Assembly: GCA_937923745.1 (NCBI GenBank)
Contig: CALDUO010000175.1
Location: forward strand, 1 to 56,477
Reading direction: 5' to 3'
Length of the DNA stretch: 56,477 bases
Source: an uncultured Granulosicoccaceae bacterium
GTDB lineage: Bacteria > Pseudomonadota > Gammaproteobacteria > Granulosicoccales > Granulosicoccaceae
Made by a program: the position numbers and the translations under genes. This document shows positions 28,222 to 50,600 of this stretch, piece by piece (position 1 is the first letter of the stretch; the number at the start of each line of letters is the position of its first letter). Below the pieces are notes generated by a model. That model did no database searches and was not told the DNA's origin. It saw nothing but the letters and a program-made list of their open reading frames with translations.

Positions 28222-29106
28222 GTGACATTCGCACATCTTGCATTACTGATCTTCATCAACGCCTGTTGGGGCTTTAATTTTATCGCCGGAAAAATAGGCA
28301 CTGGGCTCTTCGGACCGTTGCTGTTCAGTGGCTTGCGGTTTCTGGTCGTGTTGCTGTTGTTGCTGCCGTTTATCCGACCCGTGCGTGGACAGATGACGCA
28401 GATTCTCAAAATTGGTGTCGTGATGGGTGTGTGTCATTACGCGATAATGTTTTATGCCATGTCCATTGCTGACAACATTTCGGCAATTGCGATTGCCGCA
28501 CAGCTGGCGGTACCCATATCAACCCTGATGGCGGTGGTGTTTCTTCACGAAAAAGTGGGGGTTACCCGTTCTATTGCAATTGCGCTGTCATTTGCAGGTG
28601 TTGTACTGATTGGTTTTGAACCGATCAGTGGCGATCATCTGTTGTCAGTGGCGATGGCAACTTTAGGTTCTGTCGCAATCGCTGCGGCGTCTATTTGGAT
28701 GAGACAACTTCAGTCTGTAGGTGTGTTTAATCTTCAGGCGTGGATTGCGCTAATAGCCGCGCCGTCCCTGTTGGTGTTATCGGTGGGTGTTGAGGCACCT
28801 GATCTTGCGTTGCTGGCAGGTATGCGTTGGCAGGATTACTGGTCGCCAGTCTACTCGGCCATTGGGGCTACGATCATAGGCCATGGCTCGTTTTATTATT
28901 TGCTACAGCGTTATCCGGTCAATCAGGTATCGCCGTTTATTACGTTATCAACGCTCTTTGCTATTTTATTTGGTGTGACACTAATGGATGATGTGCTGAC
29001 ACCGCGCATCATTGCAGGTGGCGTGTTAACGCTGATAGGGGTGACGATTATTGCCAAGCGAAACGCAAAAAAAGATACACCAACCAGTCAACGGGTGCCG
29101 CGTTAA
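28222..29106 (+). CDS. EamA-type DMT superfamily permease
   Basis: 294 residues with ten hydrophobic segments in two EamA repeats. The first repeat starts LALLIFINACWGFNFIAGKIGTGLFGPLLFSGLRFL and the second near GSVAIAAASIWMRQLQSV, with the typical ending ISPFITLSTLFAILFGVTLMDDVLTPRIIAGGVLTLIGVTIIA (here VSPFITL). These carriers export or import small metabolites such as amino acids; the substrate is not predictable. A GTG start at 28222 is used, because no ATG precedes the first helix. It may be co-transcribed with the aldo/keto reductase and is convergent with the aldolase gene. Confidence 0.85.
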   Translation: MTFAHLALLIFINACWGFNFIAGKIGTGLFGPLLFSGLRFLVVLLLLLPFIRPVRGQMTQILKIGVVMGVCHYAIMFYAMSIADNISAIAIAAQLAVPISTLMAVVFLHEKVGVTRSIAIALSFAGVVLIGFEPISGDHLLSVAMATLGSVAIAAASIWMRQLQSVGVFNLQAWIALIAAPSLLVLSVGVEAPDLALLAGMRWQDYWSPVYSAIGATIIGHGSFYYLLQRYPVNQVSPFITLSTLFAILFGVTLMDDVLTPRIIAGGVLTLIGVTIIAKRNAKKDTPTSQRVPR

Positions 29107-30396: not shown

Positions 30397-31278
30397 TTAA
30401 GCTGATTTGAGTAAATCATCTGCATCCTGAACGGGTGCTGCGTTGTCGCCAGAGACCAAAGACTCAAAGTTGCTGTCAGCCCATTGGGCAATCAGGCGAC
30501 AGAGCTTGTTGCGATCTTTTGCTAACGTGCACAGGTGATCGGAGTCAGGCAGATACGACATATCCATATTCGCTGATTGTGACGCTTGGGGAAACATGAC
30601 CGGTAGCTGCTTGTGCGAATTGATGAATTCGCTGGCACCACCGGTGTAAATGAATTTAAGTTTCACGTCCCGTCGTACCAATTCTGTCAGTTGTTGGTCC
30701 ATGGTGTTTTGGTCCATCTGACTGCGAAACTCGACATCACTGTAGTCGTCTTCGTCTTTTCCATGTAAATGCCGTTCGATTAAATGCCGCCACTTTTGGG
30801 TACTGAAAAGACGCGGCAGGTAATGGAACAGAAAGTGTCGTGGATAAAAGCCGACCGATCTAAACCCTTTGGCATCCAGGAAGACGCAGCCAGTGACGCG
30901 TTTGTCTGCTGCGGCTATTTTAAGAGCATCATCGGCGCCTGAGCACAGACCACACACGATAAATTCACCGATACCGTACTCGCTTGTCAGATAGTCCATC
31001 GCCTCACCGATTTCCGAGACAGATCGCTCAACCAGTGAGTAGGTGGGCAGGGCAGGTTGGCTGTCGCCGACATCCCCAAGATCAAATCGCAGTGCGGTAA
31101 ATCCAAGCGTGTTGAGTTGTCGCGCTGCCTGCACGTAGAGCCTGTGTGGGCCAACATGATGCAGTAAGCCTGCGGTCAGGAACAACACGGCCGGTGCTCC
31201 GATGCGTGGTCGCTCTGGTTGACTGACAATGCCAAACAAACGTTCTTCAGGGCCAAACTGGCAGGCTATTTCATGCAT
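30397..31278 (-). CDS. Alpha/beta hydrolase with Cys nucleophile elbow, last gene of the NRPS-PKS operon
   Basis: 293 residues with an alpha/beta-hydrolase fold. The elbow is VCGLCSGADDAL: in the GxSxG frame the nucleophile position is Cys112 (G110, C112, G114), with Ser113 next to it. A later SDHLCTL supplies a His. The start PERPRIGAPAVLFLTAGLLHHVGPHRLYVQAARQLNTLGFTALRFDLGDVGDS resembles the group of hydrolases associated with exopolysaccharide/exosortase loci (hydrolase 1 type). Its ATG overlaps the end of the large C-A-PCP-hydrolase gene by 8 bp, so it belongs to the biosynthetic operon. It may release, edit or transfer the assembled product as a type II thioesterase or acyltransferase; direct proof is lacking. 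Confidence 0.75.
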   Translation of the reverse strand: MHEIACQFGPEERLFGIVSQPERPRIGAPAVLFLTAGLLHHVGPHRLYVQAARQLNTLGFTALRFDLGDVGDSQPALPTYSLVERSVSEIGEAMDYLTSEYGIGEFIVCGLCSGADDALKIAAADKRVTGCVFLDAKGFRSVGFYPRHFLFHYLPRLFSTQKWRHLIERHLHGKDEDDYSDVEFRSQMDQNTMDQQLTELVRRDVKLKFIYTGGASEFINSHKQLPVMFPQASQSANMDMSYLPDSDHLCTLAKDRNKLCRLIAQWADSNFESLVSGDNAAPVQDADDLLKSA

Positions 31279-34200
31279 TACGATAATTCACCGTCAGTAG
31301 TTCCACGACTTTCTGCTGCGTCGTATGTGGCAGAATGGCGTTGTCAATCTGCTCGGCGTTGTGCCAATGACATTCGTCACCGGTGTAGTGTTGGGTAAAC
31401 CCGGGTTCGGTGATTTTTCCGTGGTGTTTATCGTCGTTGGCAGACAAACTGTTTTTGGTCCATACACAATGCAAGTGCCGGGCATTGGCAACAATTCTTT
31501 TTTGCAGGTGAATGTCCCGCGCTTGTGATTGCCAAACATCGTTGTAGTGAAAACCCAGCATCTCCCGTGACGGTTCCTGTTTTGATCGTCGTCGGGCGCG
31601 GCGAAACCGGTCAAGGTCAGCCAGCATATCGTTGTGCATGGTAGCCAGCGTTTGCAGGTGCTCTTCGCCTGAAATTACCGGGTCCCATAAAACCAGCCGA
31701 TCAAATTCATGTGACACCTGCGATAACAACGTACCGCCAAACCGGATGCCTGCAGCAGATATCCGTGTGCAACCGCTCACCATTCGCAGGTGTGCGATGG
31801 CAGTTTTGATTTCTTTGGTCCATGCCGCAATTGTTGCGTCGCTGTCCACACCACTGGAGTCGCCGGTACCACTGTAGTCAAACCGCAGCACATAAAAACC
31901 GCGGTCGGTCAGACGGGTGGCCAGCTGACGCATGGCGCGATGGCTGCGCATGTACTCATGACCAACGGCATGACACAGCACCACGGCATGTGTTGCCTGT
32001 GGTTGCGTGGGACAATGAACATAAGTGAACAGTGATTGATCACCAACGCGAATAAACCGTGAGTCAACTCGGTTAGCCGGTGTGCTCTGAACAGATTCCT
32101 CGGCAAGCAGCACCGAAGGCCTGTCGTCAGGATTGATCGTCAGTGCAATTTGTTCCAATGATTCGCTGAGCAGCAGTCGAAGTGGCAGCGTGACACTGTA
32201 TCGTTCACGCACTGCACGTATAAAAGACACAGCCAATAGCGAGTGACCGCCGAGGTCAAAGAAATTGGTATTGCGCGCCGGTGTGTCGATGCCCATAAGC
32301 TCTGACCACAGTGTCGCGACTGCCTGTTCGGTGTCGGTCTCCGGCGGATGGGTCAGCGCGACCGTATCTTGTCGGTCAATAGCCGAGGGTGTTGCCGGTA
32401 ACGCTTTACGGTCGACTTTGCCGTTGGGCGTCTCCGGAATAGACTCGAGTCGCTCAAAGTGTTGTGGCAGCATATAGTCTGGCACGTGCAGTTTCATATG
32501 CTGTTTGAGGTCGGCAAGACCAATCGATCGTCCGTGCCGGGTGGTGTACCATGCGACCAGTCGTTTGTCGGTGGGCGTTATGGTCGAGAGCACCACCACG
32601 GCCTGGATAATATCGGGGTGGCGCGCCAACACCGTTTCAATTTCAGCGGTTTCTATACGATAACCGCGTAGTTTAATCTGGGTGTCTATACGGGTGCAGT
32701 ACTCCAGTGTGCCGTCAGCATGCAGGCGACAAAGATCACCGGTGCGGTAGAGTCGTTGGCCTTCTATTTCAACAAACCGCTCATCGGTGAGCTCTGGTTG
32801 ATGCAAATAACCCGGACTCAATCCAGACCCACCAATACACAGCTCACCGGTTGCACCTATTGCAACAGGTTGATTTTGTTTGTTCAACAGATGCACGGTG
32901 GTGTTGTCGATAGGTGTACCTATTCTGACCGGTGCTGCGCTGTCAGTGATTTGTTGGCAGGTTGACCAAATGGTGGTCTCGGTCGGGCCATACATGTTCC
33001 ATAGTTCAGCGGTGCGCGTGGTTAACGGCGCGACAAGGTCACCCGGCAGGTTTTCGCCGCCGGTCAGTGCTTTTAAATTCGATTTTCCTTGCCACCCGGA
33101 TTCCACCAACAGACGCCACACGCCAGGCGTTGCCTGCATGATGGTGATGTTTTCAGAGGTCAGTGTGTCGGCAAGTGCTGCGCCATCGAGCAGCGTATCC
33201 CGACTGCAGATGACAACCGAGGCACCCAGCGTCAGTGGTAACAGTAACTCCAGAATAGCAATATCAAACGACAGCGTGGTGACAGCAAGCAGTCGATCAT
33301 CTGCTGTGATACCGGGGCGATGCTGCATCGCATGCAGAAAATTCTGCAAATTGTGATTCGAGATTTGCACCCCTTTGGGGTTGCCGGTAGAACCAGATGT
33401 GTAGATGACGTAACAGATCTGATTGGGATCATAACGTTTAACCGGGTTACGGGTCCGTTGCGTCGCGATTTTGGCCGTTTGTTGGTCCAGAAACAGAATG
33501 CTGGTTCGTTTGTCGGGCACATCGACGTCAACATTTGACTGGGTGATAAGCAGTCGGACACCTGCATGCCCCATCATGTAATGCAAACGTTGTTGTGGCA
33601 GGCCCGGATCAAGTGGCAACCATGTGGCGCCGGCTTTTTGTACAGCGATGACCGTCGTTAACATAGCCATGCCGCGTGGCAAGCAGATGCCAACAATATC
33701 ACCCGGCGACAACCCTTTGGTCAGCAGATAGTTAGCCAGCTGATTCGCCTGCTCGTTCAGTTTTTTGTAGGTCAGTGACTTGTTACCGAACGTGACTGCT
33801 TTTTTGTCACCCTGGTCAAACGCGGTTTTTTCAAAGAGGTTTACAAACCCGTCGGAGGCAGCATGATGTCGTTTGGTGTCATTTACCTGTTGCAGTAACC
33901 GCTGGTCGAGCGGCGAGAACAACGAGACCGACTTCAACGAAAGGTCAGGCTGCTTACAGGCTTGTGCCACGACATTCAGGAACTGGGCAACCCTGTGTTT
34001 CATCGTCTCGTTGCCAAACAGATCCGAGTTAAACGAGCATTCGAGTGTTAACGAATTGTCGGTACACGCGAAATTAAAAAACCATTCGAAATTTTCAAAT
34101 TCGCGCGGTAGTGACTGATAACTGCCGTAGTAATCGCCCAGCTCAATTCGGGGTGTCTCACGGTCCATATTAAACGTATTGGAAACCAGCGGGATTCTGG

Positions 34201-35296
34201 ATCTGTCGTAGGGCAGATTTAATTCACCGATCAACTGACTGAAGGTGAACTCCTGATGTTCGTATGCGTTCATCAGTTTTTCACGGACCGATTGCATCAG
34301 AGACGACAGCGTATCGTCATCTTTGATTTGATATCGGATAGGCAGCATGTTGACACAATGTCCGACTAACCCGTGCAACCCTGCGACCGACTGACCGGAC
34401 GCCGGTATACCGGTGATGATATCCGTGCGATGCGTAAGTTTGTGCAGGAACGCGACGTAACAGGAAAACAGCCACGAAAACCGTGTGCATTTTTGAGCGG
34501 TTGCTGCCTCCTGAATGCGATCGCATAACTCGGCGGTCAGAGGAACGTCAAGCCGGCTGCCCGCAAAGGTTCGTGTTGCTCCACGTGTTCCGTCAGTGGG
34601 TAAGTCCAGTGCATCCGGCTTGTCTTCAAACTGGTTTTTCCAGAAATCCAGTGCAATTTTCGCGCGCTCTGACTGCTGGTGTTTCGTGCAGTGTAAAACG
34701 TAGTCTGCGAAGGGTCGGGACTGTGGCAGTGGCGGCTGCTCGATGCCGAGTTGTCGGCGAAAAAACCATGCAAAGTCATTCATCAATACGCCGTGCGACC
34801 AACCGTCAGCGATGATGTGATGCAGCATGATGACCACGGTTGTGCTCGCCTGTTCGTACACAATATGTGTTCGCCACAATGGCTCCATCGTCAAATCGAA
34901 AGGACGGGTGACCAAGTCATGGCAAACAGACGCCAGTGTCGCTGTTGTTTCGCCGTCTTCGCGAAGATCGGTGATCGGGGCATAAAATACCTGGTGATCC
35001 AGAATAATCATCCGTTCACCTGAGCGGCTAAACCGTGCCCGAAGTGAGTCGTGACGTTTGGACAGGCTGTTTAATGCCAGCTGGACTGTCTGTTGACTGA
35101 CAATGCCATCGATACTGATTAAAAAACCTTCATTAAAGGCGCGCGATGCGTCGGGTCCGAACTGATCAGACAGCCAGATTTCATGCTGAGCCGGTGTGGG
35201 TGGCAGCGCTTGAGTGATTGTCATCGACGCCATGTCACTGCGTTGTCGGTCAGTGGTAATGGCTTGACTGGTTGAGTGAGAGTTTGTGTTCATCAT
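31271..35296 (-). CDS. NRPS module C-A-PCP with C-terminal hydrolase-fold domain
   Basis: 1341 residues from ATG 35296, which overlaps the previous stop as TGATG; a second ATG at 35293 is possible. Order: condensation domain (about 30-440) with HHIIADG at 159-165 and the TPAQHEIWLSDQFGPDASRAFNEG start that is typical of C domains taking a polyketide donor; adenylation domain (about 480-975) with YVIYTSGSTGNPKG; carrier domain with phosphopantetheine Ser1019 in DLGGHSLLA; then an alpha/beta-hydrolase-like domain (about 1075-1341). Pocket residues read by alignment to GrsA are D-I-L-Q-L-G-M-I-W-K, a glycine-type code. The hydrolase elbow is AAGIRFGG, with Arg where Ser is expected. The protein would condense the ketide from the 35296-41712 protein with glycine. 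Confidence 0.88.
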   Translation of the reverse strand: MMNTNSHSTSQAITTDRQRSDMASMTITQALPPTPAQHEIWLSDQFGPDASRAFNEGFLISIDGIVSQQTVQLALNSLSKRHDSLRARFSRSGERMIILDHQVFYAPITDLREDGETTATLASVCHDLVTRPFDLTMEPLWRTHIVYEQASTTVVIMLHHIIADGWSHGVLMNDFAWFFRRQLGIEQPPLPQSRPFADYVLHCTKHQQSERAKIALDFWKNQFEDKPDALDLPTDGTRGATRTFAGSRLDVPLTAELCDRIQEAATAQKCTRFSWLFSCYVAFLHKLTHRTDIITGIPASGQSVAGLHGLVGHCVNMLPIRYQIKDDDTLSSLMQSVREKLMNAYEHQEFTFSQLIGELNLPYDRSRIPLVSNTFNMDRETPRIELGDYYGSYQSLPREFENFEWFFNFACTDNSLTLECSFNSDLFGNETMKHRVAQFLNVVAQACKQPDLSLKSVSLFSPLDQRLLQQVNDTKRHHAASDGFVNLFEKTAFDQGDKKAVTFGNKSLTYKKLNEQANQLANYLLTKGLSPGDIVGICLPRGMAMLTTVIAVQKAGATWLPLDPGLPQQRLHYMMGHAGVRLLITQSNVDVDVPDKRTSILFLDQQTAKIATQRTRNPVKRYDPNQICYVIYTSGSTGNPKGVQISNHNLQNFLHAMQHRPGITADDRLLAVTTLSFDIAILELLLPLTLGASVVICSRDTLLDGAALADTLTSENITIMQATPGVWRLLVESGWQGKSNLKALTGGENLPGDLVAPLTTRTAELWNMYGPTETTIWSTCQQITDSAAPVRIGTPIDNTTVHLLNKQNQPVAIGATGELCIGGSGLSPGYLHQPELTDERFVEIEGQRLYRTGDLCRLHADGTLEYCTRIDTQIKLRGYRIETAEIETVLARHPDIIQAVVVLSTITPTDKRLVAWYTTRHGRSIGLADLKQHMKLHVPDYMLPQHFERLESIPETPNGKVDRKALPATPSAIDRQDTVALTHPPETDTEQAVATLWSELMGIDTPARNTNFFDLGGHSLLAVSFIRAVRERYSVTLPLRLLLSESLEQIALTINPDDRPSVLLAEESVQSTPANRVDSRFIRVGDQSLFTYVHCPTQPQATHAVVLCHAVGHEYMRSHRAMRQLATRLTDRGFYVLRFDYSGTGDSSGVDSDATIAAWTKEIKTAIAHLRMVSGCTRISAAGIRFGGTLLSQVSHEFDRLVLWDPVISGEEHLQTLATMHNDMLADLDRFRRARRRSKQEPSREMLGFHYNDVWQSQARDIHLQKRIVANARHLHCVWTKNSLSANDDKHHGKITEPGFTQHYTGDECHWHNAEQIDNAILPHTTQQKVVELLTVNYRNA

Positions 35297-38200
35297 CAGG
35301 CGCTTTGATAGAAAATAAGTGCGTCGGAATCTTCGGGGTCTGTCATAAACCACGCGGCTTCGCCGGTGTCTGTTAATCCAAGTACAGCATGTTCTGTTGG
35401 CGGATGATCGATAGTTGAAATACCCGCAGCGCGGTACGCGGCTACAGCTTGCTCCGACGTAGGGTAGGCCGGCGTATCGCTGTTAGTTGGCGCAGAGCTC
35501 GACTGCTGCTCGCTATCGTTCGTAATCTTCGCTGAGGTGACTCGCTGGTCTTCTGATCGTGGCGTTGTAGTACCGACCGGGTTATTCATCAGCGTTTGCT
35601 GTTTGTGTAATAGCGAATGGCTAACCTCATCGTTAGCGGCGCGCAGTCCAGCGACGTTGGTCCGTAAAACGTTTGTTGAATTTGCACCGCGCAAGAGGTC
35701 CAGCTGCTCATGCATAATTTGCAACTGTGCGGTGATCAATGCTTCTATGTCACCGGCGTCAGCGTTTTCGGTCGTTACATGTTCACTAATTGGTGGTTGT
35801 CCTTGATTTTGTGTCATAACGGGCTGTTCTGTATCAGGTGTTATGTGTGTTGTGAGTGGCTCTTTGGTCGCTGGCTGTAGTGACTCAATGTGTTTGCTGA
35901 GTAACGACAGCGTGCAATACTTTTCGCTTAAATCACGAAATGAGACGTTAATGTCGAAGGTGTCTTTTATCAGATGCCCTGTGCGCGTCATAAACAGTGA
36001 GTCGAGTCCTGCATCAACGAAGTCAGTGTCTTCGGTGATATCGTCGAGATTAATGCCGGACGACTCGGTCAACAGTCGGCGCAGTTGTACCTGAATAGTC
36101 TCAGGTGGTGGTGTCTCAGCGTGTGGTGCCGGTATGGCCGTAACGGCTATGTCACGAACCGGTTGCGTGAGCACAGGGTGACGCTTCGCTGGCTCTAACC
36201 AGTATCGAGTGGGTTCGAACGCATAACCGGGCAACGGCATGGGTTGTCCGGATCCTGTGTCCATCAGCGCTTCGAGGTCCAGGTCAAGATGATTCACCCA
36301 TAAACTGCCAGCGGCGGCGAGCAATGCTATCTGCTCTTGCCGGGGTTCGCCGCTGCGTGGCAGTGATGCCACCGCAGGCCTGGTTGGCTGTGCAACACCC
36401 GTTGAATGTGTAGAGTCTTGAGTGGCTGATGACTGGCGCAGCATTTGTGTGGCCAGTGCAGTGCCTGTTTTACCAGGTCCTATTTCCAGGAAAGCTGCGT
36501 CGGTATCGTTAATCAGTGTATTGATACCGTGTGCGAATTTCACTGGCCGTCTGATATGCATGGCCCAGTAGTCAGCGCTGGTTGCCTCGTGGTCTGTGAT
36601 CCATGTGCCGGTGGCGCTGGAGACAAATGGAATCTTGGGTGCGTGAAGCTCAGCCGTGCTCACTATTTGTTTAAACGGTGATACAGCGTCGTCCATCATG
36701 GGCGAATGAAACGCGTGCGAGGTGACGAGCAGGCGACACGGCACATCGAGACGCCGATAGTGTGCCTCGAGTGCGTCAATTGTCTCTGTGGGTCCGGCAA
36801 TAACACACTGGTCAGGACCATTGATCGCAGCTACCGACGTGGTGGGTGGCAGCGCATCGCCCAGAGACTCCTCCAATGCATCCACACCTAACCTGACACT
36901 CAGCATGGAGCCTTCAGGCATTGACTGCATGAGTCTGCCGCGTTCACTGACCAGTCGTATGGCGTCATCCAATGAGAACACACCCGCCAAATGAGCAGCC
37001 AAATAGTCCCCGATGCTATGGCCCAATAATGCGCAGGGCGTGACGTTTGCACTTTTCCACAACGCCGCCAACGCATAACCCAACGAAAACAACGCCGGTT
37101 GGGTGTAACGGGTCTGATCCAGTTGACTCGCATCAGACGAGAACATAATGGCTTTTAAATCAACAGCAGTTTGTGATTCGTAGACCATGAAACACTGATC
37201 CAGTGCGTGCTTAAATTCGGGATATCGACCATAGAGATCCTGTCCCATCCCTGCGTACTGTGAGCCTTGTCCCGGCACGATGAACGCGACTGACGACGAT
37301 GGTCTGCCCTTGTGAGTTGCCGCGGATACCGCATCACCTGTACGGGTAATCAGAGCCTCGTGTCCGGGCCCGGTCGTGATCACTGAAAAGCTACGGTGGT
37401 TGAATGGCGCACGATGAGCACGCAGTGTTCTGGCCACCTGCTGCGCGTCAGGACATGATGGTTGGGTGTTACAAAACAGTGCGCGAATCTGTGTTGCATT
37501 ACGTTTGCAGGCGTCGATGGTTTTGCCGCTGTGTAGCAATAGCTGTGGCTGTCCCGCCGGTGCCGTGGCGGATACCGCTTGATCAGTCGGTGTGATAGCT
37601 GTGGTGTGGCTAATAGATGGCGCTTCTTGCACGACGACATGAGCGTTGGTGCCGCCAACACCAAAAGAGCTAACCCCGGCAACCCGTGCTTGTCCGTTTT
37701 CTGTGGTCCAGTCTTTTAACGAGGCATTCACATAAAACGGCGACGTCTCAAAATCTATCCTGTGGTTTGGTTTGGTGTAGTTGATGCTCGGTGGAAGTTG
37801 TTGATGTACAAGTGCGAGGCAGGTTTTGATGAACCCGGCAACACCTGCCGCTGCGGTGACGTGACCTATATTACTTTTTACTGATCCCACCGCGCAGTAA
37901 CCGGTGGCGTCAGTGTATTGCCGATAGGCCTGTGTCAGTGCAGCGATTTCAACCGGATCACCAACCGGCGTTGCTGTTCCGTGCGCTTCAACATACGACA
38001 CAGCAGAGGCGGGCAGCCCTGCTGATGTCAGTGCGTCTGTAATAACTTGAGCTTGCCCTTCAATGCCGGGCGACATAAAACTCATTTTGTCGCCGCCATC
38101 GTTGTTGATTGCAGCACCCCGAACAATGGCGATTATTCGGTCACCGTTGGCGGTAGCGTCACTGAGTCTTTTGAGAACCACGACGCCAGCGCCATCGCTA

Positions 38201-41200
38201 AACAAGGTGCCGGAGGCGTTGTCATCAAACGGACTGCAGTGTCCGTCACGACTCATAATGTCACCGTCTTGGTGAACATGACCGGCGTTGACGGGGCTGG
38301 TGACTGAAGCTGCACCGGCCAAGGCCATGTCACAACGACCTGCCTTGAGCGCGTGAAAGGCTTCGACAATAGCGACCAATGAGGTCGAACAGGCCGTATG
38401 CAAACTAATGGCGGGCCCTTTTAAATTTAGCTTGTGCGCAATACGCGTGGCGACATAGTCTTTTTCGTTGCCGATGGAGGTTTGCAGGACACCCAGTCGG
38501 TTAACGATTTCGGGGTGTGACAGTACATTGTGCGTGTAGTAGGTGTTGTTGTTAACACCGGCATAAACCGCAATTTTGTTGTTCTTCGGAACGACGACAC
38601 CGGCATTTTCCAAAGCATGCCAGCACAGCTGTAAAAGCACACGTTGTTGAGGGTCCATAACAGTTGCTTCGACAGGATTGACACCAAAAAATTCAGCGTC
38701 AAAAGTGTCGACCTCATCGAGAATACCGCGTACTGCTACGTAATTTGGATCATTGGTTAACGAAGATGAAAGGTTGTTATCGAGCTCGTCGGCGGTAAAG
38801 TGCGTCAGAGTCTCTTTGCCGTCGATCAGGTTCTGCCAAAAAGCTTCCACCGATGATGCGCCCGGAAAACGAGCCGCCATACCAATAACAGCAATATCCT
38901 CGTCGGCAAATTGCTGTGTTCGGCCGTCAGTGTTGTTGTGGGCGTTGGCCGACGTGTTGCTACCGCTGTGGCCGGTGGATGTGCCGATCGTCACAGTGCT
39001 GTCGCGTGTTGCCGAAGCTGCATCGGCGGCTCGGGGTGCTCCTGCGGTGCTGCCAATTGCCGCGTCTGCGTCTCTTGGGGTAATTTCCCGGGGTTGCAGT
39101 TTTCTTAAATTTTCTGCTAGCGCGGTTATAGTGGGTGCCTTAAACAGATCCACAATACCAACGTGATAACCGGACTCTGTTCGGAGTCTGCCAAGCATAC
39201 GAACAGCACTTATTGAGTTGCCACCCAGCTCGAAAAAACTGTCGTCGATACCCACGCTGTCAATCCCGAGGACATCGCACCATAACAGTGACAGCATTTT
39301 TTCCTGCTCACCGACAGCCGGTACAAACAATGTCGCAAGGCCCGGTCTGACCGGTTTAGGTTGAGGTAATGCCTGACGGGCGATTTTTCCGTTGGGTGTT
39401 ACCGGCATTGCATACACATGCTCAAAATAGCGCGGCACCATATAGGCCGGTACATGCTGCGCCACGTATTCTGATAGTGCTGACGCAGACACAGGTTCCC
39501 GGTTTACCGAGGTGTACCAGGCTACCAATTGGGGTTCCCGGTCGGCAGATGCTGACAACCCCACGATGGATTGTTGTACAGCGTTATGTTCCGACAGCAC
39601 AGACTCAATCTCACCGGTTTCAATGCGAAAACCGCGTAACTTAATCTGGTTATCGATACGACCGATATAGTCGAGCGATCCGTCCGCCAGCAGTCGGCAT
39701 AAATCACCGGTGCGGTACAGTCGCTCACCACTGAGGGAGACGAATCGCTCGTCGGTGAGATCGGGGCGATGCAAATAACCCTGGCTGACGCCCAACCCGC
39801 CAATACACAGCTCGCCGGTGAGTCCTATCGCAACCGGATTGTTGTGGGCATCGAGAATACGCACCGTCGTGTTATCAATGGGCTGCCCAATACGAATGGG
39901 TGTCTGCGCATTGGTGATTTTTTGGCAAGTTGACCAAATGGTTGTTTCGGTAGGTCCGTACAGATTCCACAGTGCATGGGTTCGCTGCAATAAGGGTGCG
40001 ACTAAATCCGGTGGCAGACTTTCGCCGCCTGCGAGTGCGTTTAGATCCTGTTTACCCGTCCAGCCTGACTCAAGTAACAATCGCCAAACCGTGGGGGTTG
40101 CCTGCATCACGGTGACACTGTGCCGGGTCAGTGCGTCAGCGAGTGCGTGGCCGTCCAGTACTGTATGGCGATCACAGACCACGACCGAAGCGCCCACCGT
40201 GAGTGGCAGCAACAATTCGAGTATTGCAATATCAAACGACAATGTCGTTACAGCCAAAAGCGTATCGTTGCGATCAATGCCAGGGGTAGATTGCATCGCC
40301 ATTAAAAAATTCTGTAAGTTTCGATGCGTGACACGCACCCCCTTGGGTTTGCCGGTGGAGCCTGAGGTGTAAATGACATAGGCCGTGGCATCTGCATCAA
40401 AGGCTCTGGCCGGTGAAGTGATTGGCTGGGTATTCAACGACGCCTCATCGTTGTCGAGTAAGACAAGGCGTGTATGAGTCTCTGCCCAGATATCAGCAAC
40501 GCTGGATGCTGTGACTAACATCGACACTCTGGCATGATCGACGGTGTAATGTAGCCGTGACTCCGGATGATCAGGATCCAGTGGTAACCAGGCGGCTCCG
40601 GTTTTTTGAATAGCCAGCATGGCTGTCACCATCTCGATACCGCGCGGCAGACAAATGCCGATAATGTCTTGCCGTTTTGCACCACAGGTGATCAAGTGAT
40701 GCGCCAGTTGATTGGATCGGATAGCGAGTTGTTCGTAGCTCAGCGAACCCGTGTTATCCGCAACAGCTGTTCGCTCTGCATGGCGCTCTACACTGATGGA
40801 AAACTGCGCCAGGAAACCCAGTGTCGGATCCAGTGGGACAGTCGTGTCATTCACACGGCTGATCAGATCCTGATCGCGCTGTGTGATCAGCGAGATTGTA
40901 TCCAACGGTGTGTCGGGTTCGTGACTGAGTTGCGTCAGAACTTTTAGGAATTGATCCAGTCGATGCACGATCGTGTCGTGGCCGTTGAGCTGCGTGTTGA
41001 ATGTGCACTCAATGCATAGCGTGTCATCGGTTGCTTGCCCGTTGATGGGCTTCAGATGAATGAGCCAGTCTGGTTGCAGCGTTGTGTCACCGGCTGTTGC
41101 GCAGTGGTAAAAAAAGCCGGTAGAGGTCGGGTGTAATTCACTTGCTACGGTGGCAGTGTCTGCTGCCCGCGCTGCGGCCGTTAGTAAAACATCCTCGGAT

Positions 41201-41712
41201 GCAGCGTTAGACCATTGCTGGTTGATCTGCGTTAGCAGTGAGGCCAGTGTTGGGCCGACAGAGGTGACTACGACCTGATGGCACGCGCTCGCTAACGAAT
41301 CAACGGCTGAGGGAAGCTTGCGAAGCTGCGCGGCGGTAAACGTTATATCCTGACTGCCAGTCAACTTGTACAAAAAAGCGGCGTAGCAGGCAGACGTCCA
41401 GACAGCCTCAGTGGTGCCTTGTTCTGCCGCGGCTCGATTGATCAGTCGCTGCAATGCTTCGGCAATCGGCATCAGCACCGTTTCAAATACTGGTGCCGCC
41501 CCCGAATTCAACGCGTAGTCCGAATCAGAGTGAGCTTGTCGGGAGTAATGCGAGCGAGGGTAGTCCGTGGGCAAATCTGCCATAACGGCAGGTGCCGTGG
41601 TTGTGCCTGACTCTGCCGTAAAACCTGCTCGCAGATCTGGCACAGACAGCACCTGCGATTGGCGGTCAGAGCAGGCCGCTGTTGGCGGTTTTTCGGGTGT
41701 TGGACGACTCAA
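35296..41712 (-). CDS. Hybrid NRPS-PKS: partial C-A-PCP-KS-AT-ACP
   Basis: 2138 residues. Residues about 86-290 match only the C-terminal lobe of a condensation domain and lack HHxxxDG. The A domain (about 300-795) has YVIYTSGSTGKPKG and a pocket code D-I-L-Q-L-G-L-I-W-K, glycine-type. The PCP Ser is 833 (ELGGNSIS). The KS (about 935-1370) has the active Cys1108 in TACSTS plus AHGTATPVGDP and NIGHVTAAAG. The AT (about 1470-1790) has GHSIGDY with Ser1566 and an HAFH motif, predicting malonyl-CoA. The ACP Ser is 1905 (GLDSL). No KR, DH, ER or MT is present, so the keto group should remain. After the ACP come a coiled-coil-like LQIMHEQLDLLRG and a C-terminal WFMTDPEDSDALIFYQ segment. The start is TTG; no ATG exists upstream before a stop. 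Confidence 0.9.
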   Translation of the reverse strand: MSRPTPEKPPTAACSDRQSQVLSVPDLRAGFTAESGTTTAPAVMADLPTDYPRSHYSRQAHSDSDYALNSGAAPVFETVLMPIAEALQRLINRAAAEQGTTEAVWTSACYAAFLYKLTGSQDITFTAAQLRKLPSAVDSLASACHQVVVTSVGPTLASLLTQINQQWSNAASEDVLLTAAARAADTATVASELHPTSTGFFYHCATAGDTTLQPDWLIHLKPINGQATDDTLCIECTFNTQLNGHDTIVHRLDQFLKVLTQLSHEPDTPLDTISLITQRDQDLISRVNDTTVPLDPTLGFLAQFSISVERHAERTAVADNTGSLSYEQLAIRSNQLAHHLITCGAKRQDIIGICLPRGIEMVTAMLAIQKTGAAWLPLDPDHPESRLHYTVDHARVSMLVTASSVADIWAETHTRLVLLDNDEASLNTQPITSPARAFDADATAYVIYTSGSTGKPKGVRVTHRNLQNFLMAMQSTPGIDRNDTLLAVTTLSFDIAILELLLPLTVGASVVVCDRHTVLDGHALADALTRHSVTVMQATPTVWRLLLESGWTGKQDLNALAGGESLPPDLVAPLLQRTHALWNLYGPTETTIWSTCQKITNAQTPIRIGQPIDNTTVRILDAHNNPVAIGLTGELCIGGLGVSQGYLHRPDLTDERFVSLSGERLYRTGDLCRLLADGSLDYIGRIDNQIKLRGFRIETGEIESVLSEHNAVQQSIVGLSASADREPQLVAWYTSVNREPVSASALSEYVAQHVPAYMVPRYFEHVYAMPVTPNGKIARQALPQPKPVRPGLATLFVPAVGEQEKMLSLLWCDVLGIDSVGIDDSFFELGGNSISAVRMLGRLRTESGYHVGIVDLFKAPTITALAENLRKLQPREITPRDADAAIGSTAGAPRAADAASATRDSTVTIGTSTGHSGSNTSANAHNNTDGRTQQFADEDIAVIGMAARFPGASSVEAFWQNLIDGKETLTHFTADELDNNLSSSLTNDPNYVAVRGILDEVDTFDAEFFGVNPVEATVMDPQQRVLLQLCWHALENAGVVVPKNNKIAVYAGVNNNTYYTHNVLSHPEIVNRLGVLQTSIGNEKDYVATRIAHKLNLKGPAISLHTACSTSLVAIVEAFHALKAGRCDMALAGAASVTSPVNAGHVHQDGDIMSRDGHCSPFDDNASGTLFSDGAGVVVLKRLSDATANGDRIIAIVRGAAINNDGGDKMSFMSPGIEGQAQVITDALTSAGLPASAVSYVEAHGTATPVGDPVEIAALTQAYRQYTDATGYCAVGSVKSNIGHVTAAAGVAGFIKTCLALVHQQLPPSINYTKPNHRIDFETSPFYVNASLKDWTTENGQARVAGVSSFGVGGTNAHVVVQEAPSISHTTAITPTDQAVSATAPAGQPQLLLHSGKTIDACKRNATQIRALFCNTQPSCPDAQQVARTLRAHRAPFNHRSFSVITTGPGHEALITRTGDAVSAATHKGRPSSSVAFIVPGQGSQYAGMGQDLYGRYPEFKHALDQCFMVYESQTAVDLKAIMFSSDASQLDQTRYTQPALFSLGYALAALWKSANVTPCALLGHSIGDYLAAHLAGVFSLDDAIRLVSERGRLMQSMPEGSMLSVRLGVDALEESLGDALPPTTSVAAINGPDQCVIAGPTETIDALEAHYRRLDVPCRLLVTSHAFHSPMMDDAVSPFKQIVSTAELHAPKIPFVSSATGTWITDHEATSADYWAMHIRRPVKFAHGINTLINDTDAAFLEIGPGKTGTALATQMLRQSSATQDSTHSTGVAQPTRPAVASLPRSGEPRQEQIALLAAAGSLWVNHLDLDLEALMDTGSGQPMPLPGYAFEPTRYWLEPAKRHPVLTQPVRDIAVTAIPAPHAETPPPETIQVQLRRLLTESSGINLDDITEDTDFVDAGLDSLFMTRTGHLIKDTFDINVSFRDLSEKYCTLSLLSKHIESLQPATKEPLTTHITPDTEQPVMTQNQGQPPISEHVTTENADAGDIEALITAQLQIMHEQLDLLRGANSTNVLRTNVAGLRAANDEVSHSLLHKQQTLMNNPVGTTTPRSEDQRVTSAKITNDSEQQSSSAPTNSDTPAYPTSEQAVAAYRAAGISTIDHPPTEHAVLGLTDTGEAAWFMTDPEDSDALIFYQSA

Positions 41713-42065
41713 CTGGATATGCTCACTGATTGCCGGGGGTGTCCCGGTCCGAAGTAACGTAAACGTTCACGGTTGTTAGCGGCCGTACTCTTATTAAGTA
41801 CAGGCGGAACCGATGATTTTCCGCTTCTTGTCGTCGTTGAGTGGCCCTGGTGTGCTCGTGCTTTAATCTCCAGGCAGTTTTTAAACGATATGGCGCAATT
41901 TCATGACATTTTTAGTCATTTCGGCGCTATTTCGGTGCTAAATCGGTATCGATCTGACGCGCTTTTATCAAGTTAGCTGAATGCGAACTGGTTCAACCCA
42001 GCTGTGGACAGCTGGCGTGGGGCGCTTTAGTCTGAGTGCATTGTCGAATAACCCGAGAATCGCCG
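41713..42065. promoter_or_regulatory. Divergent region upstream of the NRPS-PKS operon
   Basis: 353 bp between the minus-strand assembly-line gene and the plus-strand GFA gene, without another supported gene. Two inverted repeats lie close to the biosynthetic start: AACGTAAACGTT (41756-41767; 5-bp arms, AA centre) and GTACT (41785-41789) / AGTAC (41797-41801). They are candidate operators. The reading frame of the assembly-line protein stays open for 18 codons upstream of its TTG before meeting a stop. Confidence 0.45.
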
Positions 42066-42488
42066 ATGACTCGTCACACCAGCAAACCCACGTCAACACA
42101 TGTCAGCGGTTCATGCCTGTGTGGCCGGGTGCGCATGCAAGTCGCTGAATTCGATACCCAGGTGGTCGCATGCCACTGCAGTCAATGTCGAAAGCAGACT
42201 GGCAGCTATTACCATGCGGCGTCGGTTCTCGACAGCAATCTCACGATGGAAGGTCGTGAATTTGTGAAGGAGTACGCAGCGTCCGATTTTGCAAAGCGCG
42301 GGTTTTGCAGCGAATGCGGCTCTGCGTTGTACTGGAAACAAAATGACGCCGACACGACATCCGTGATGGTCGGTCATTTTGATAACCCAACCGGTCTGCG
42401 TACCATCGGACACATTTTTGTGGACGACATGGGTGATTACTACACACTCGACCCCGAGCTTCCGCAATATCCGCAATCGGATACCTAA
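42066..42488 (+). CDS. GFA/CENP-V domain zinc-binding protein
   Basis: About 140 residues from ATG 42066 (a GTG at 42036 would add ten). The glutathione-dependent formaldehyde-activating (GFA) fold is shown by GSCLCGRVRMQV, ACHCSQCRKQTGSYYHAAS and GFCSECGSALYW: a Cys-x-Cys, a Cys-His-Cys-x2-Cys and a Cys-x2-Cys set of zinc ligands in the usual order. Members bind zinc at structural and putative catalytic sites; formaldehyde-glutathione chemistry was shown for only some, and most have no known substrate. It diverges from the NRPS-PKS operon and is followed by a DMT permease 36 bp later, probably in one transcript. Confidence 0.88.
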   Translation: MTRHTSKPTSTHVSGSCLCGRVRMQVAEFDTQVVACHCSQCRKQTGSYYHAASVLDSNLTMEGREFVKEYAASDFAKRGFCSECGSALYWKQNDADTTSVMVGHFDNPTGLRTIGHIFVDDMGDYYTLDPELPQYPQSDT

Positions 42489-42524
42489 TGCACCTGAACG
42501 ATGCCGCGGGGCGGCCCAACTGAC

Positions 42525-43418
42525 ATGAAAACCCGTGACATCTTCATTGCGACTGTTGTACCCGTTAGTTGGGGCATCGGGTTGGTGGTAGCAAAACCGG
42601 TGTTGGCAGATTTCCCGCCCATCCTGCTTATCGCGCTGCGTTTTTTGGTCGCAGCCGTACTGCTATTATGTCTGGTACGGCTTCCCCGGCGCTTGTTGTG
42701 GCCCATGGCGCGTGTGGCGTTTGTGGGTGCTACCATTCAGTATGCTTTTACGTTTTATGGGTTGAAGTATCTCGACGCTGGCACCACCGCTTTAATCGTG
42801 CAGGCAGAAGCGCCGTTTTTGGTGTTAATCGCCGCGCTTTGGCTACGCGAACCCATGACTGCCCGGCAGTGGGTTGGTATGGCGATCGCGTTTGTTGGAT
42901 TGTATTTGGTATCCGGTCAGCCGCAAGTATTGGGCACTTGGTGGGCTGTGCTGTTGGTGTTGGCCGGTGCTTTCAGTTGGGCGTTGGGTCAGGTCATGGT
43001 CAGGCAGTTGGGTGATGTCGGCGGGCTCACCATCACTGCAGGGCTCACAGTCACTGCGGCGCCCCAGCTTTTTCTGGTGTCCTGGATTGTCGAGTCTGAC
43101 CCAATCATCCATATCACCAATGCAGGCTGGCAGGTTTGGGGTGCAGTGATGTACCTTGGTGTGGTGATGACGGTGATCGGGTATGGCTGTTGGTATCATG
43201 TTTTGGGTAAATACTCAGCCGGTCGTGTGGCGCCGTTTTTATTGTTAACACCTGTATCGTCTGTGTTGGGTGGGTACTGGTTGCTCAACGAACAACTAAC
43301 CCCAATCACGTTGGTCGGTGGTTTTATTATCGTGTCGGGTGTTGCGTTGCTGGCATTGGAACCCGGCAACGATAAAGTAACGAAACACAATCAAACGGCA
43401 CCGGCGAATACACGCTAA
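42525..43418 (+). CDS. EamA/RhaT-type DMT permease
   Basis: About 297 residues from ATG 42525; an in-frame ATG at 42501 is an alternative and neither has a strong ribosome-binding site. Ten hydrophobic segments form two EamA repeats: FIATVVPVSWGIGLVVAKPVLADFPPILLIALRF, then FYGLKYLDAGTTALIVQAEAPFLVLIAALWLREPM as the conserved repeat-end, and later KYSAGRVAPFLLLTPVSSVLGGYWLLNEQLTPITLVGGFIIVSGV. This resembles the amino-acid-metabolite exporter branch (YdcZ/EamA type). It could export a product, and it lies close to the NRPS-PKS operon although divergent from it; that link is only by position. Confidence 0.87.
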   Translation: MKTRDIFIATVVPVSWGIGLVVAKPVLADFPPILLIALRFLVAAVLLLCLVRLPRRLLWPMARVAFVGATIQYAFTFYGLKYLDAGTTALIVQAEAPFLVLIAALWLREPMTARQWVGMAIAFVGLYLVSGQPQVLGTWWAVLLVLAGAFSWALGQVMVRQLGDVGGLTITAGLTVTAAPQLFLVSWIVESDPIIHITNAGWQVWGAVMYLGVVMTVIGYGCWYHVLGKYSAGRVAPFLLLTPVSSVLGGYWLLNEQLTPITLVGGFIIVSGVALLALEPGNDKVTKHNQTAPANTR

Positions 43419-46108: not shown

Positions 46109-47686
46109 GTGACCACAGGTATTCAACAGAGCGTCATACCCCAGCGATTTTCTGCGTTAGCCGACTGGATCGCCAACGTGTTTGGCTGGCGCGACGTGAC
46201 GCTCGCAGCAGTCACACCACTCAGTGGTGGCGCTATTCAGGAAAATTGGTGGGTGCAGGTGCACTCTGACGGTCAGTTACATGACTGGGTCTTGCGCACC
46301 GATGCACCGTCAGCTGTCGCCACCAGCATGACACGGCAGCAGGAATACACGGTGCTGTGTGCGGCGTTTGAACATGGGGTGCGAGTGCCCGAGCCACTAC
46401 AGTATTGTGACGATACATCAGTGATAGGCTCGCCGTTTTTTATCATGCAAAAAGCAAGTGGTGTTGCACGACCTGCGGCAATACTGCGTGACCCGGTATT
46501 ACCTGATTTTGGTGAGGCACTCGGGCAAACACTCGGCCGTCAGCTGGCAAAGATTCATACCATCAGTTACGCGTCTGACGCGCTCAACTTTTTACTCACC
46601 GATGTGCCACTGAATGGATCAGCGTCGCTCTACCGAATTCAACAGTATCGCGCTGCGTTGGATCGTTTGCCGGAGCGTTATCCCGCTATCGAATACTTGT
46701 TGACCTCACTGGCACAGTTAGCACCGGCCACCACGGACTGGGTGGTGTGTCATTGCGATTACCGCACTGGCAATTTTCTGGTACACCAGGGTGAACTGTC
46801 AGCAATACTCGATTGGGAATTCACAGCGCTCGGCGATTGGCATGAAGACCTCGGCTGGTTTCTCGCCCGGTGCTGGCGGTTCGGTCATGATCATTTGGCC
46901 GCCGGTGGTATCACCGCATCACCGGTATTTCTGAGTGCATACGAACAGGCGTCTGGCCGACAGGTAAATAACGAGACCCTCATCTGGTGGCAATGCATGG
47001 CAGAAGTGCGGTGGGCTATCATCGCGCTACAACAGGCACAAAGACACAGTAGTGGCGGTGAAGACTCACTCGAGCTTGCGTTAACTGGCAGAATGGTACC
47101 TGCCATGGTGCATAATGCGTTGGTGCAACTTGAGCGCAGGGCAGGCATAACCTGCGACACTGTGACGTCGGGCCCGAAGCCGCACGATTCAGCGACAACA
47201 ACACCGACAACAACACCGGCAACACCTACCGAACGTTTGTTACACACGGCAGTCGCAACCTACAACGGGTCATTAATGCCGGCGCTGCCAAGAGATCAGC
47301 GGTATAACGCGGCAATGGTACGTCGTGTCATGGCGATTGTTTCGCGAGAGCTCAACACAGCACACACCGACTATCGGTACAGCTGTCAGCAACAGGTGTA
47401 CGAGAGTGCCGGCTTAACCGAGGTTGGACAAACCTTATCGTCTGCACAGATACCCCTGCTGGATCAGCAACTGGCGATGCTGTTTCGGCAAGCGAATGGG
47501 GTGGATACCAATGAGAGGGCTGTAGACAGTATGGCTGCAATTCAGGCTGACCTGCGGGCTGGCAACACACCGCTGTTACATCAAGCGTTTGCTCAACAGT
47601 GTCTTGCTGAGCTGGCCATTAACGACCCATCGTTTATACCGATAACCGTGGCGGGTGAACAACACACGACGGAGACGCAGACATGA
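46109..47686 (+). CDS. APH-type phosphotransferase fused to a DUF6285-like C-terminal region
   Basis: 525 residues from GTG 46109. Residues about 10-330 are an aminoglycoside-phosphotransferase/choline-kinase fold: LSGGAIQENWWVQV, WVLRTD (ATP Lys position is Arg), the Brenner motif CHCDYRTGNFLV (HxDxxxxN) and ILDWEFTALGDWHEDLGW (Mg-binding Asp). This is the ACAD10/11 or LvaA type, which phosphorylates a hydroxyacyl-CoA. A linker with a PTTTPATPT repeat follows, then about 370-515 LLHTAVATYNGSLMPALPRDQRYNAAMVRRVMAIVSRELN, matching proteins normally encoded separately beside such kinases (DUF6285). The fusion is the odd feature. The stop overlaps the next gene by 4 bp (ATGA). Confidence 0.82.
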   Translation: MTTGIQQSVIPQRFSALADWIANVFGWRDVTLAAVTPLSGGAIQENWWVQVHSDGQLHDWVLRTDAPSAVATSMTRQQEYTVLCAAFEHGVRVPEPLQYCDDTSVIGSPFFIMQKASGVARPAAILRDPVLPDFGEALGQTLGRQLAKIHTISYASDALNFLLTDVPLNGSASLYRIQQYRAALDRLPERYPAIEYLLTSLAQLAPATTDWVVCHCDYRTGNFLVHQGELSAILDWEFTALGDWHEDLGWFLARCWRFGHDHLAAGGITASPVFLSAYEQASGRQVNNETLIWWQCMAEVRWAIIALQQAQRHSSGGEDSLELALTGRMVPAMVHNALVQLERRAGITCDTVTSGPKPHDSATTTPTTTPATPTERLLHTAVATYNGSLMPALPRDQRYNAAMVRRVMAIVSRELNTAHTDYRYSCQQQVYESAGLTEVGQTLSSAQIPLLDQQLAMLFRQANGVDTNERAVDSMAAIQADLRAGNTPLLHQAFAQQCLAELAINDPSFIPITVAGEQHTTETQT

Positions 47687-50600
47687 CGCTATTAACTGTA
47701 GAGCTGGATGATCGTTACGACCTCTCTGTCGACCGTGTGTTTATAACCGGCACCCAGGCGTTGGTCAGACTATGCCTGATGCGTTCCGCACTCGACACAC
47801 AAGCCGGGTTAAATACGGCAGGTTACGTATCCGGTTATCGTGGTTCACCGCTGGGTGGACTTGACCAACAATTCCCCCGTGCTGCATCAGTGTTGGACAG
47901 CTGCAATATTCATTTCGAACCCGCCCTGAACGAAGATCTTGCCGCCACTGCCATTTGGGGCACTCAGCAGGCAGAGTTACGCGGTGAGGGGCAGTACGAT
48001 GGCGTCTTTGGTCTATGGTATGGCAAAGGACCCGGTGTTGACCGTTCGGGTGATGCGTTGCGTCATGCAAATCTTGCCGGTACGTCGCCGCATGGTGGAG
48101 TGTTGGTGCTGACCGGTGATGACCATACCTGTGAAAGCTCCACGACGTGTCACCAAAGTGAGTACGCCCTGCAGGATGCAATGATACCTGTGTTGAACCC
48201 CGCGAGTATTCAGGAAATCATACAGTATGGTTTACACGGTTGGGCGCTGTCTCGTTATGCCGGTGTCTGGTGTGGGTTAAAAGCCGTCAAAGACAACATT
48301 GAATCAACGGCCTCTGTCGATGTCTCTCTGCACAGTTTTAACAGCGACTTACCGCCAACCTCCAGGAAAGAAGGGAGCACAGAAGATGACACAGAAAATA
48401 GCCTGAATATTCGGTTGCGGGATACACCGCAGTTACAGGAGCAGAGGCTGCATCAGCATAAACTCAAAGCGGTACAGGCTTATGTACGGCACAACCAACT
48501 GGATCGTCGTATGTTTGTCGGTGGTGGGCAGCCGCGCATCGGTATCGTCAGCACCGGTAAATCGTGGCTCGATACCGTGCAGGCACTGGAAGCGCTGGGC
48601 ATTGATGACACACGGGCGCAGGCGCTTGGTATAACCACTTATAAAGTGGCGATGTCATGGCCGCTTGAACCCAGTGGCATTGTGTCGTTTGCAACAGGAC
48701 TTGACCTGATTATTGTGGTTGAAGAGAAACGCGGACTCATCGAAGAGCAGGTGAAGTCCCTGCTGTATCACAATGCGCATAGGCCTGTTGTTATCGGTAA
48801 ACAAGACGAGCAGGGTCAGACGCTGTTCCAGTCAGAAGCCGCGTTAAATCCAGTGCAGATCGCGTTAGCGATTGGCCAGCGTATTTTAGCGGCAGGCCTT
48901 GATGAAGTGGTGCAGCAACGTGTTGCAGATCTACAGACCTTAATAAACACAGAACGTGAGTCGTTAGCGGTGCTGCGTAAGCCGTATTTTTGTGCCGGTT
49001 GCCCACACAACTCATCCACGCGTATTCCTGACGGTGCCCGAGCCTACGCCGGTATTGGCTGTCACTATATGGTGCAGTTCATGGACCGTAACACGGAAGG
49101 TTACACCCACATGGGCGCAGAAGGTGCCAACTGGATTGGCGAGTCAAAATTCTCGACCCGTCAACATGTGTTTCAGAATATGGGTGACGGCACTTACAAC
49201 CACTCGGGCATTATGGCCATTCGGGCAGCGATATCTGCCAATACGCATATGACGTTTAAGTTGCTCTTTAACGACGCTGTGGCAATGACCGGTGGACAGG
49301 CGCATGAAGGTGGTTTAACTCCCTACGATATTGCCCACGATGTCACAGCAGCCGGTGCGACCCGCGTCGCATACGTGACTGATCAGCCCGAACAGGTTGA
49401 CCGCCAAAGGTTACCGGCAACGGTAAATGTTGATCATCGGGATAACCTGATATCCGTACAGGAATCACTCGCGCAAGCGCCGGGTGTCACTGTGCTGATC
49501 TATGAGCAAACCTGCGCCGCTGAAAAACGCCGTCGGCGAAAACGCGGCATCATGCCTGATCCGCCGAAACGATTGTTTATTAACGATGCGGTTTGTGAAG
49601 GGTGTGGTGATTGTGGCGTTAAATCCAATTGTGTGGCTGTCGTACCGCTGGAGACACCGTTTGGTCGTAAGCGCGAAATTGATCAGTCGTCGTGTAATAA
49701 AGACTACTCCTGTGTGAAAGGATTTTGTCCGAGTTTTGTCTCCATTGAAGGTGGTGCATTACGTCGCCCGGTGTCATCCACAGCCAGCGCTGCCACTGCA
49801 TCATCTGCTGCAGTGATACCGCCACCTGCGCAGCAACCGTCACTGGAATCCCCGTATGCCATCGTCTTAACCGGTGTCGGTGGTACCGGTGTTGTGACCA
49901 TAGGTGCGCTGCTGGGTATGGCGGCGCATCTGCAGGGTTTGGGCTGCGGCATCATCGATATGGCTGGCCTTGCGCAAAAAGGCGGGGCGGTAGTGTCGCA
50001 TATCAAACTCTCTGCCACTCCCGAAGATATTCATGCCATTCGTATTGCCGCAGGCGGTGCCGATCTTCTGTTGGGATGCGATTTACTCGTTGCAGCCAGT
50101 GATGCGGTGGTACGCACGCTGGATCCCGAGCGGAGCCGGGTGATCACGAACACGCATGAAATGATAACCGGCGAATTCACGCATAACCGACAGTTCTCAT
50201 TGCCAACAGACGCGATGCACGCTCAGCTGGAGTCAGCTATTGCCGATACCGATCGATTGCTGCGTGTCGACGCCACACAGATGGCAAAGACACTGCTCGG
50301 CGATACCATTGCTGCCAATCTCTTTTTACTCGGCGCTGCGTGGCAACGTGGCTGGATACCTCTGCAGCTCGATGCATTACAAAAAGCCATTGAGCTCAAT
50401 GGTGTCGCTATCACGTTAAATCAACAGGCGTTTGAGTGGGGTCGGCAGTTTGTACATGACCCTGACGCTGTTATGGCGCAGGCCAATGCCCTGCGACCGG
50501 TGACAGAGACGGTGGTGACGTTACCGCAGACACTGGATGCGCTGATCTCGCAGAACAGCGAACAGTTGGCCTTGTGGAAAAATCGCGCCTGGGCGCGGCG

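Follow-up and report, generated by a model that had tools for sequence, protein, structure and literature searches.

The operon and its domain order

What does an assembly line of two amino acid modules and one extension module make, and how does the chain leave it? This question is raised by a three-gene operon at positions 30397–41712, minus strand, of a 56,477-nucleotide stretch (hereafter the window; contig CALDUO010000175.1, assembly GCA_937923745.1) from an uncultured Granulosicoccaceae bacterium. Our analysis predicts that this hybrid of nonribosomal peptide synthetase (NRPS) and polyketide synthase (PKS) probably builds a glycine–C2–glycine chain in the order of its domains, and that this chain would be released by the free hydrolase encoded by the last gene. 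The less expected result, which the original prediction made on this DNA did not see, is that this free hydrolase (Hs) and the hydrolase-like domain fused in front of it (Hf) form a recurring pair with an arginine in one member and a cysteine in the other.

Three minus-strand open reading frames fill the operon, at 35296–41712 (gene 1, 2138 amino acids, TTG start), 31271–35353 (gene 2) and 30397–31278 (gene 3). Pfam matches and motif reading give half-condensation (half-C), adenylation (A), peptidyl carrier (PCP), ketosynthase (KS), acyltransferase (AT), acyl carrier (ACP) and linker in gene 1, C–A–PCP–Hf in gene 2 and the free Hs in gene 3. This is the architecture originally proposed, with which the frame coordinates also agree. 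In gene 1, Pfam recognizes AMP-binding, PP-binding, both the N- and C-terminal KS families, AT and a second PP-binding domain. These correspond to A1 (39358–40803), PCP1 (39097–39315; GGNS), KS with its C-terminal extension (37381–38907; TACSTS, EAHGTA and SNIGH), AT (36418–37290; GHSIG and SHAFH) and ACP (35857–36105; GLDSLF), followed by a linker of 186 residues (35299–35856). Gene 2 matches Condensation (full C, 33893–35209; HHIIADG), AMP-binding (A2, 32399–33835), PP-binding (PCP2, 32129–32344; GGHS) and, weakly, Hydrolase_4 over Hf (31274–32071; 24.0 bits for a cut-off of 27). Gene 3 gives a weak match to Abhydrolase_1 (19.4 bits, cut-off 25.8), and neither gene 2 nor gene 3 matches the thioesterase family PF00975 at E 0.001. 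All motifs checked are intact. With A, PCP and C domains beside KS, AT and ACP domains carrying their active-site motifs, the operon is a hybrid NRPS-PKS.

The start of gene 2 is most likely at 35296 or 35293 and not at the GTG at 35353, in agreement with the lengths and starts of two related proteins (P0130 and P0131). It overlaps or abuts the stop of gene 1, and gene 3 shares 8 bases with gene 2; hence, the three genes look like one operon. For gene 1, the related protein P0002 backs the TTG start at 41712 (MSRPTPEK in gene 1, MSRLTSEK in P0002). A simple sigma-70 scan of 41650–42100 gave no promoter-like site, which says little for this bacterial group. In the host genome (4.1 Mb, 265 contigs, 84.88% complete), PF00668 matches genes 1 and 2 only.

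Gene 1 opens with the C-terminal half of a condensation domain (40864–41583, outer limit set by eye). The Pfam Condensation match covers only profile positions 394–454 of 456; the half-C exceeds it, given the 47% identity between gene 2 and residues 81–845 of gene 1. The HHxxxDG motif was not found in this half-C. In the approximately 590 bases upstream of gene 1, all three minus-strand frames are stop-rich and no missing C half was recognized. Since, in addition, P0002 begins at the same place, we rejected the loss of the first half by a frameshift. The half-C is probably a relict, because its identity to P0002 is 0.40, against 0.71 for A1 and 0.80 for KS.

Substrates and predicted product

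Read by script, the ten-residue codes are DILQLGLIWK for A1 and DILQLGMIWK for A2, identical to those first read by eye; both fit the glycine type DILQLG[LM][IV]WK. We take DILQLGLIWK to be a glycine code. The HAFH motif of an AT is that of malonyl-specific domains, and SHAFH was indeed found here, as had been claimed. As for the second code, excerpts of PMC12283262 give DILQLGMIWK as that of four MOX-containing glycine modules.

By Pfam, genes 1 to 3 encode no ketoreductase (KR), dehydratase (DH), enoylreductase (ER) or aminotransferase, which bears out the earlier statement that the line has no reducing domain. A KR or aminotransferase hidden in gene 1 was also considered and rejected: none is detected by Pfam, and the tail of the protein aligns with linkers and not with the aminotransferase core of the related locus L121 described below. 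The domain order, the glycine codes, the malonyl-type AT motif and the absence of a reducing domain together lead to 4-amino-3-oxobutanoyl-glycine as the predicted chain. Such a glycine–malonyl–glycine product with a retained ketone is well supported as a prediction. The same chain had been proposed before, and the proposal is sound at that level, the features that underlie it being kept in P0002 and P0131. The line follows ordinary hybrid NRPS-PKS logic in a minimal order; our search of open-licence papers found none on such a line or on its predicted product.

Relatives of the line

Protein searches of limited candidate sets gave two close relatives, the figures holding among the matches listed (at least 120 for each search). 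The first, P0002, matches residues 300–2138 of gene 1 with 62% identity; for the second, P0131, identity is 81% across residues 20–1360 of gene 2. They apparently sit on one ENA metagenome contig: the longest contig has the same length, 15,089 bases, for both, so they most likely share it. Apart from this divergence, they have the same domain order as genes 1 and 2. P0002 keeps the half-C and the code DILQLGMIWK, with no aminotransferase domain listed, and P0131 keeps DILQLGMIWK and the GIRFG elbow of Hf. With glycine codes and half-C retained and no ketone-processing domain, the order is conserved. Domain by domain, identity to these proteins is 0.80 for KS, 0.71 for A1, 0.72 for ACP, 0.66 for AT and 0.87 for A2; the lowest values, both against P0002, are those of the half-C (0.40) and of the PCP–KS linker (0.19). 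Judged from these alignments, the catalytic parts of the line are conserved in a second metagenome source. Among 48 genomes of the family (E 1e-150, eight candidates scored per genome), a full-length match to gene 1 was found in the window's own genome only.

The nearest order elsewhere is that of a Granulosicoccaceae metagenome-assembled genome (L034/L121, CALCKW010000024.1), A-PCP-KS-AT-ACP-aminotransferase, then C-A(Gly)-PCP-Hf and Hs. It shares A-PCP-KS-AT-ACP, C-A(Gly)-PCP-Hf and Hs with the window but differs by its first A code (DVSHIGFVFK) and by the class-III aminotransferase after the ACP. Part of the post-ACP linker of the window aligns with the linker that precedes this aminotransferase, so the window line may have lost such a domain. 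Another line of the same genome, L122, has a similar linker without aminotransferase; it also lacks any ketone-processing domain, but no Hf or Hs lies within its 20 kb. The operon might thus be a line that lost its aminotransferase and is decaying or non-functional, with no defined product. The position of the aminotransferase in L121, between the ACP and C-A(Gly)-PCP-Hf with Hs, would fit this, as would the poorly conserved half-C and a phosphopantetheinyl transferase present only as a fragment. Against it, all three genes keep an open frame and overlap or adjoin one another, their motifs are intact, and P0002 and P0131 hold the same order with conserved cores. We consider decay quite improbable.

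A recurring pair of hydrolases

The elbow of Hf, GIRFG, has an arginine where the nucleophile is expected and therefore no nucleophile, whereas that of Hs, GLCSG, has Cys112. Hf is related to TIGR03101 and Hs to TIGR03100, with 86.0 bits (curated cut-off 202.75) and 72.4 bits (curated cut-off 168.45), respectively. As both scores fall under the cut-offs, membership of the window pair in these two families was rejected.

Both residues are strongly conserved. In dereplicated alignments (the window plus 52 of 57 Hf and the window plus 59 of 71 Hs, the remaining rows being omitted by hand, including L049 with a serine at the cysteine place of its Hs), the elbow arginine is present in all 53 Hf rows, Cys112 in 59 of 60 Hs rows and His248 in 60/60. 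In a larger set that holds some genomes twice, the arginine is found in 90/91 Hf and the cysteine in 95/99 Hs.

Counting the window, 83 loci have Hs after Hf; seven duplicates were dropped from this count, close relatives remain in it, and for 14 loci there was no usable A domain upstream. In favour of the pairing, distances in the Hf tree and in the Hs tree are correlated (r = 0.79, maximum of 1,000 permutations 0.15, n = 89). The pair stands behind NRPS or PKS carriers in six phylum-level groups: Pseudomonadota, Planctomycetota (L089), Gemmatimonadota (L068), Myxococcota (L065), KSB1 (L053) and Chloroflexi (L064 and L083). In Caldithrix (L056), it has no visible carrier. Furthermore, eight of the nine matches listed in a search with a fusion as query are Hf–Hs fusions (P0121–P0128, P0121 being the query itself). 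These natural fusions are ordered A-PCP-Hf-Hs, P0127 being without most of its A domain. No paper on this release pair was found in a literature search of open-licence papers.

The pair tends to follow a glycine module. An A domain immediately precedes Hf in 50 loci, window included; its code is of the strict glycine type in 29 and fits a looser one in 32, and the codes of some distant A domains vary by one or two residues between alignments. Clustering at 60% identity, which allows for close relatives, leaves the strict code in 21 of 30 clusters. For comparison, excerpts of PMC12283262 report a set of 2,051 A domains of which 93 are for glycine; this share is only a rough background for the excess seen here, part of which can be put down to module and pair having been inherited together.

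The composition of the PKS lines bears on what the pair can release. All ten PKS-bearing Hf/Hs lines scanned carry KR, KR-DH, KR-DH-ER or an aminotransferase in their last PKS protein (11 PKS proteins beyond the window, some cut by the stretch, from a subset of the PKS-bearing loci). Hence, Hf/Hs is not a dedicated tetramate cyclase.

Several other types of line end in the pair. Eight one-module A-PCP-Hf-Hs lines of Granulosicoccaceae (L035, L038, L041, L042, L044, L048, L049 and L090) have the code DIEHVTAV[ST]K; one loaded amino acid and two hydrolases suggest no obvious product. The other non-glycine codes before Hf include some that are presumably serine-like or beta-alanine-like. Thirteen loci, mostly from Variovorax (L076, L079, L091, L096, L099, L101, L103, L104, L105, L106, L108, L109 and L110), have C-A-PCP-C-PCP, then Hf and Hs. 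Their last module has no A domain (C-PCP between the last A and Hf), and they lie behind ACP, AT-ACP or KS-AT-ACP within the stretch; both lines of this type that were scanned (L076 and L096) have an aminotransferase. Stand-alone A domains with the code DLFY[LMI]ALVCK (L022:3563-5155, L024:2084-3664, L028:798-2423 and L031:17769-19397) adjoin C-A(Gly)-PCP-Hf and Hs. Since we take similar codes to be those of proline/pyrrole starters, these lines might, as a guess, make pyrrolyl-glycine. Finally, L019 and L020 have VDW...LADK-type codes, which we assume to be for beta-alanine, on either side of the glycine module, and end in Hf and Hs.

Release of the chain

In the proposed route, A1 would load glycine onto PCP1, and condensation by KS with malonyl from AT would yield 4-amino-3-oxobutanoyl-ACP. 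This unit would next be joined to glycine on PCP2 by the gene 2 C domain. Hf, which adjoins PCP2, would present the carrier to Hs, and the chain would move onto Cys112 of Hs and then leave, as a free acid by default or, alternatively, after ring closure on Hs. Judged by position and sequence, Hf is likely to serve as the partner on the carrier side, with Hs as the enzyme whose Cys112 receives the chain. Because the pair also serves chains that should be without a beta-ketone, release catalysed by Hs with the free acid as default is the reading that we prefer. Two other readings differ from it only in the chemistry of release and overlap it.

The first is a tetramic acid, a cyclisation that the original prediction had already suggested. 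In a Dieckmann reaction like that of TrdC or NcmC, Hs would act in trans on the beta-ketoacyl-glycyl thioester and close it to 3-(aminoacetyl)pyrrolidine-2,4-dione. As the window line retains its ketone, beside the glycyl thioester, this closure is possible and chemically attractive. The AlphaFold2 model of Hs (predicted local distance difference test, pLDDT, 90.0) has an alpha/beta hydrolase fold in which Cys112, Asp135 and His248 follow one another in triad order, Asp135 coming directly after the predicted strand 128–134; the likeness is one of residue order. According to excerpts of PMC10956176, the Dieckmann cyclases NcmC and BpdE are alpha/beta hydrolases by fold with a Cys-Asp-His triad, and the C89S variant of BpdE failed to restore production. 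By the same excerpts, the lines of tirandamycin (TrdC), nocamycin (NcmC) and bripiodionen (BpdE) condense a beta-ketoacyl chain with an amino acid on the last PCP and then have a free cysteine alpha/beta hydrolase, as is predicted for the window line. The window line differs in that a glycine NRPS module starts its minimal chain and its hydrolase has a fused partner with an arginine elbow.

Against cyclisation, the ketone-processing domains in the ten scanned lines indicate that the pair also serves chains that should be unfit for a Dieckmann reaction, and on this ground the assignment of Hs as a Dieckmann cyclase by family was rejected. Moreover, lipases, feruloyl esterases and a PETase rank highest among the solved structures that match the Hs model, above the thioesterase DcsB and GrgF. 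NcmC (6E6Y) was not among the structure matches listed (best 60 of 89; best 50), which rules nothing out. Thus, the triad order speaks for the suggested ring and the relatives of the pair speak against it; we hold the tetramate to be possible though doubtful. Another route to tetramates, the lactam route of MucE described in excerpts of PMC10161427, leads to tetramates without a 3-acyl group and would here cut the chain short of the second glycine.

The second reading is that Hf and Hs together form a transferase that passes the glycyl chain to an amine, an alcohol or a macromolecule instead of water, and that exosortase-A loci may do likewise. The single-module A-PCP-Hf-Hs lines argue for it, in that plain hydrolysis of one loaded amino acid would be futile, as do six exosortase-A loci with a similar pair, with the cysteine in 6/6 Hs and the arginine in 4/6 Hf elbows. 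However, no acceptor gene is evident near the operon, the neighbours scanned being transporters, an aldolase, a regulator and metabolic enzymes. We therefore regard a transferase as rather unlikely.

A model of a PCP-Hf-Hs fusion reached a pLDDT of 77.8 and a predicted template modelling score of 0.79, values that may mean that its domains pack together. The matches listed for it span about one hydrolase domain, except in two rows, where the match is 3tej, a fragment whose description names only peptide natural product biosynthesis.

Several observations weigh against the proposed assembly and release. The A codes and HAFH are themselves predictions of substrate. The cysteine place of Hs is occupied by serine in two sequences and by glycine in two of the larger set with duplicates. 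The position of Asp135 holds Asp in 39 of 60 rows, Asn in 18 and Glu in three, so the full triad is not general. The correlation between the Hf and Hs trees may reflect joint inheritance instead of contact, and both trees hold no other hydrolases as outgroup. In a control, 8 of 14 well-known genomes gave TIGR03100 matches below the cut-off and none above it; weak matches alone therefore mean little. As for the link with glycine, 18 of the 50 adjacent A domains fit neither the strict nor the loose code, and in L029 the last domain in front of Hf and Hs seems to be a PKS carrier. At the level of the host genome, which is about 85% complete, the sole match to an ACPS-family phosphopantetheinyl transferase, at a contig edge (G000:C25:15-146), is fragmentary and covers 43 profile positions, and class-III aminotransferases give nine matches on contigs other than that of the operon, so that the ketone could be processed in trans.

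Relationship with exosortase-A loci

TIGR03101 and TIGR03100 are hydrolase 2 and hydrolase 1 of the exosortase A system. Like the window pair, they form two tandem hydrolases in the same order; unlike them, the window pair scores below both cut-offs and is fused to or lies beside NRPS carriers. TIGR03098 ligases score above cut-off in 30 of 229 genomes of the class, and an adjacent Hf-like and Hs-like pair was found in 6 of 12 loci around such a ligase, within the stretch fetched. In these six pairs, every Hs elbow is GLCDAA or GLCDGA; the Hf elbow is GLRLGA in three and QRTGA in one, the two other Hf not being resolved by motif search. The six pairs separate from the NRPS/PKS pairs with a support of 1.0 in both trees.

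From these elbows and trees, the two kinds of pair look homologous, with the window pair outside the exosortase families. To our knowledge, no role has been assigned to the exosortase-A hydrolases. It is a tentative idea, more likely wrong than right, that Hf–Hs is one ancient release device, made of an arginine pseudo-hydrolase that presents the carrier and a cysteine transferase, and common to exosortase-A loci and to short NRPS/PKS lines of many phyla that often end in glycine. On this view, exosortase-A loci would have, in their ligase, carrier and hydrolase genes, a one-module NRPS-like pathway by which a small acid is charged and transferred.

Surroundings of the operon and implications

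EamA-type transporters flank the operon on both sides, on the plus strand (28222–29106 and 42501–43418), and could possibly export the product. Further along, 47683–51195 encodes a 1170-amino acid protein with POR, TPP-binding and DUF6537 domains. It stands in a row with an APH-like kinase, a relative of arylmalonate decarboxylase/Asp-Glu racemase and three GFO/IDH/MocA oxidoreductases.

If our reading is true, the product of this minimal, three-gene line is either an amino-keto dipeptide or an aminoacetyl-tetramate. The wider prize would be the release pair, which is recurrent, ends lines in many uncultured bacteria and tends to follow a glycine module. Hf and Hs would also link natural-product lines with the hydrolases of exosortase-A protein-sorting loci.

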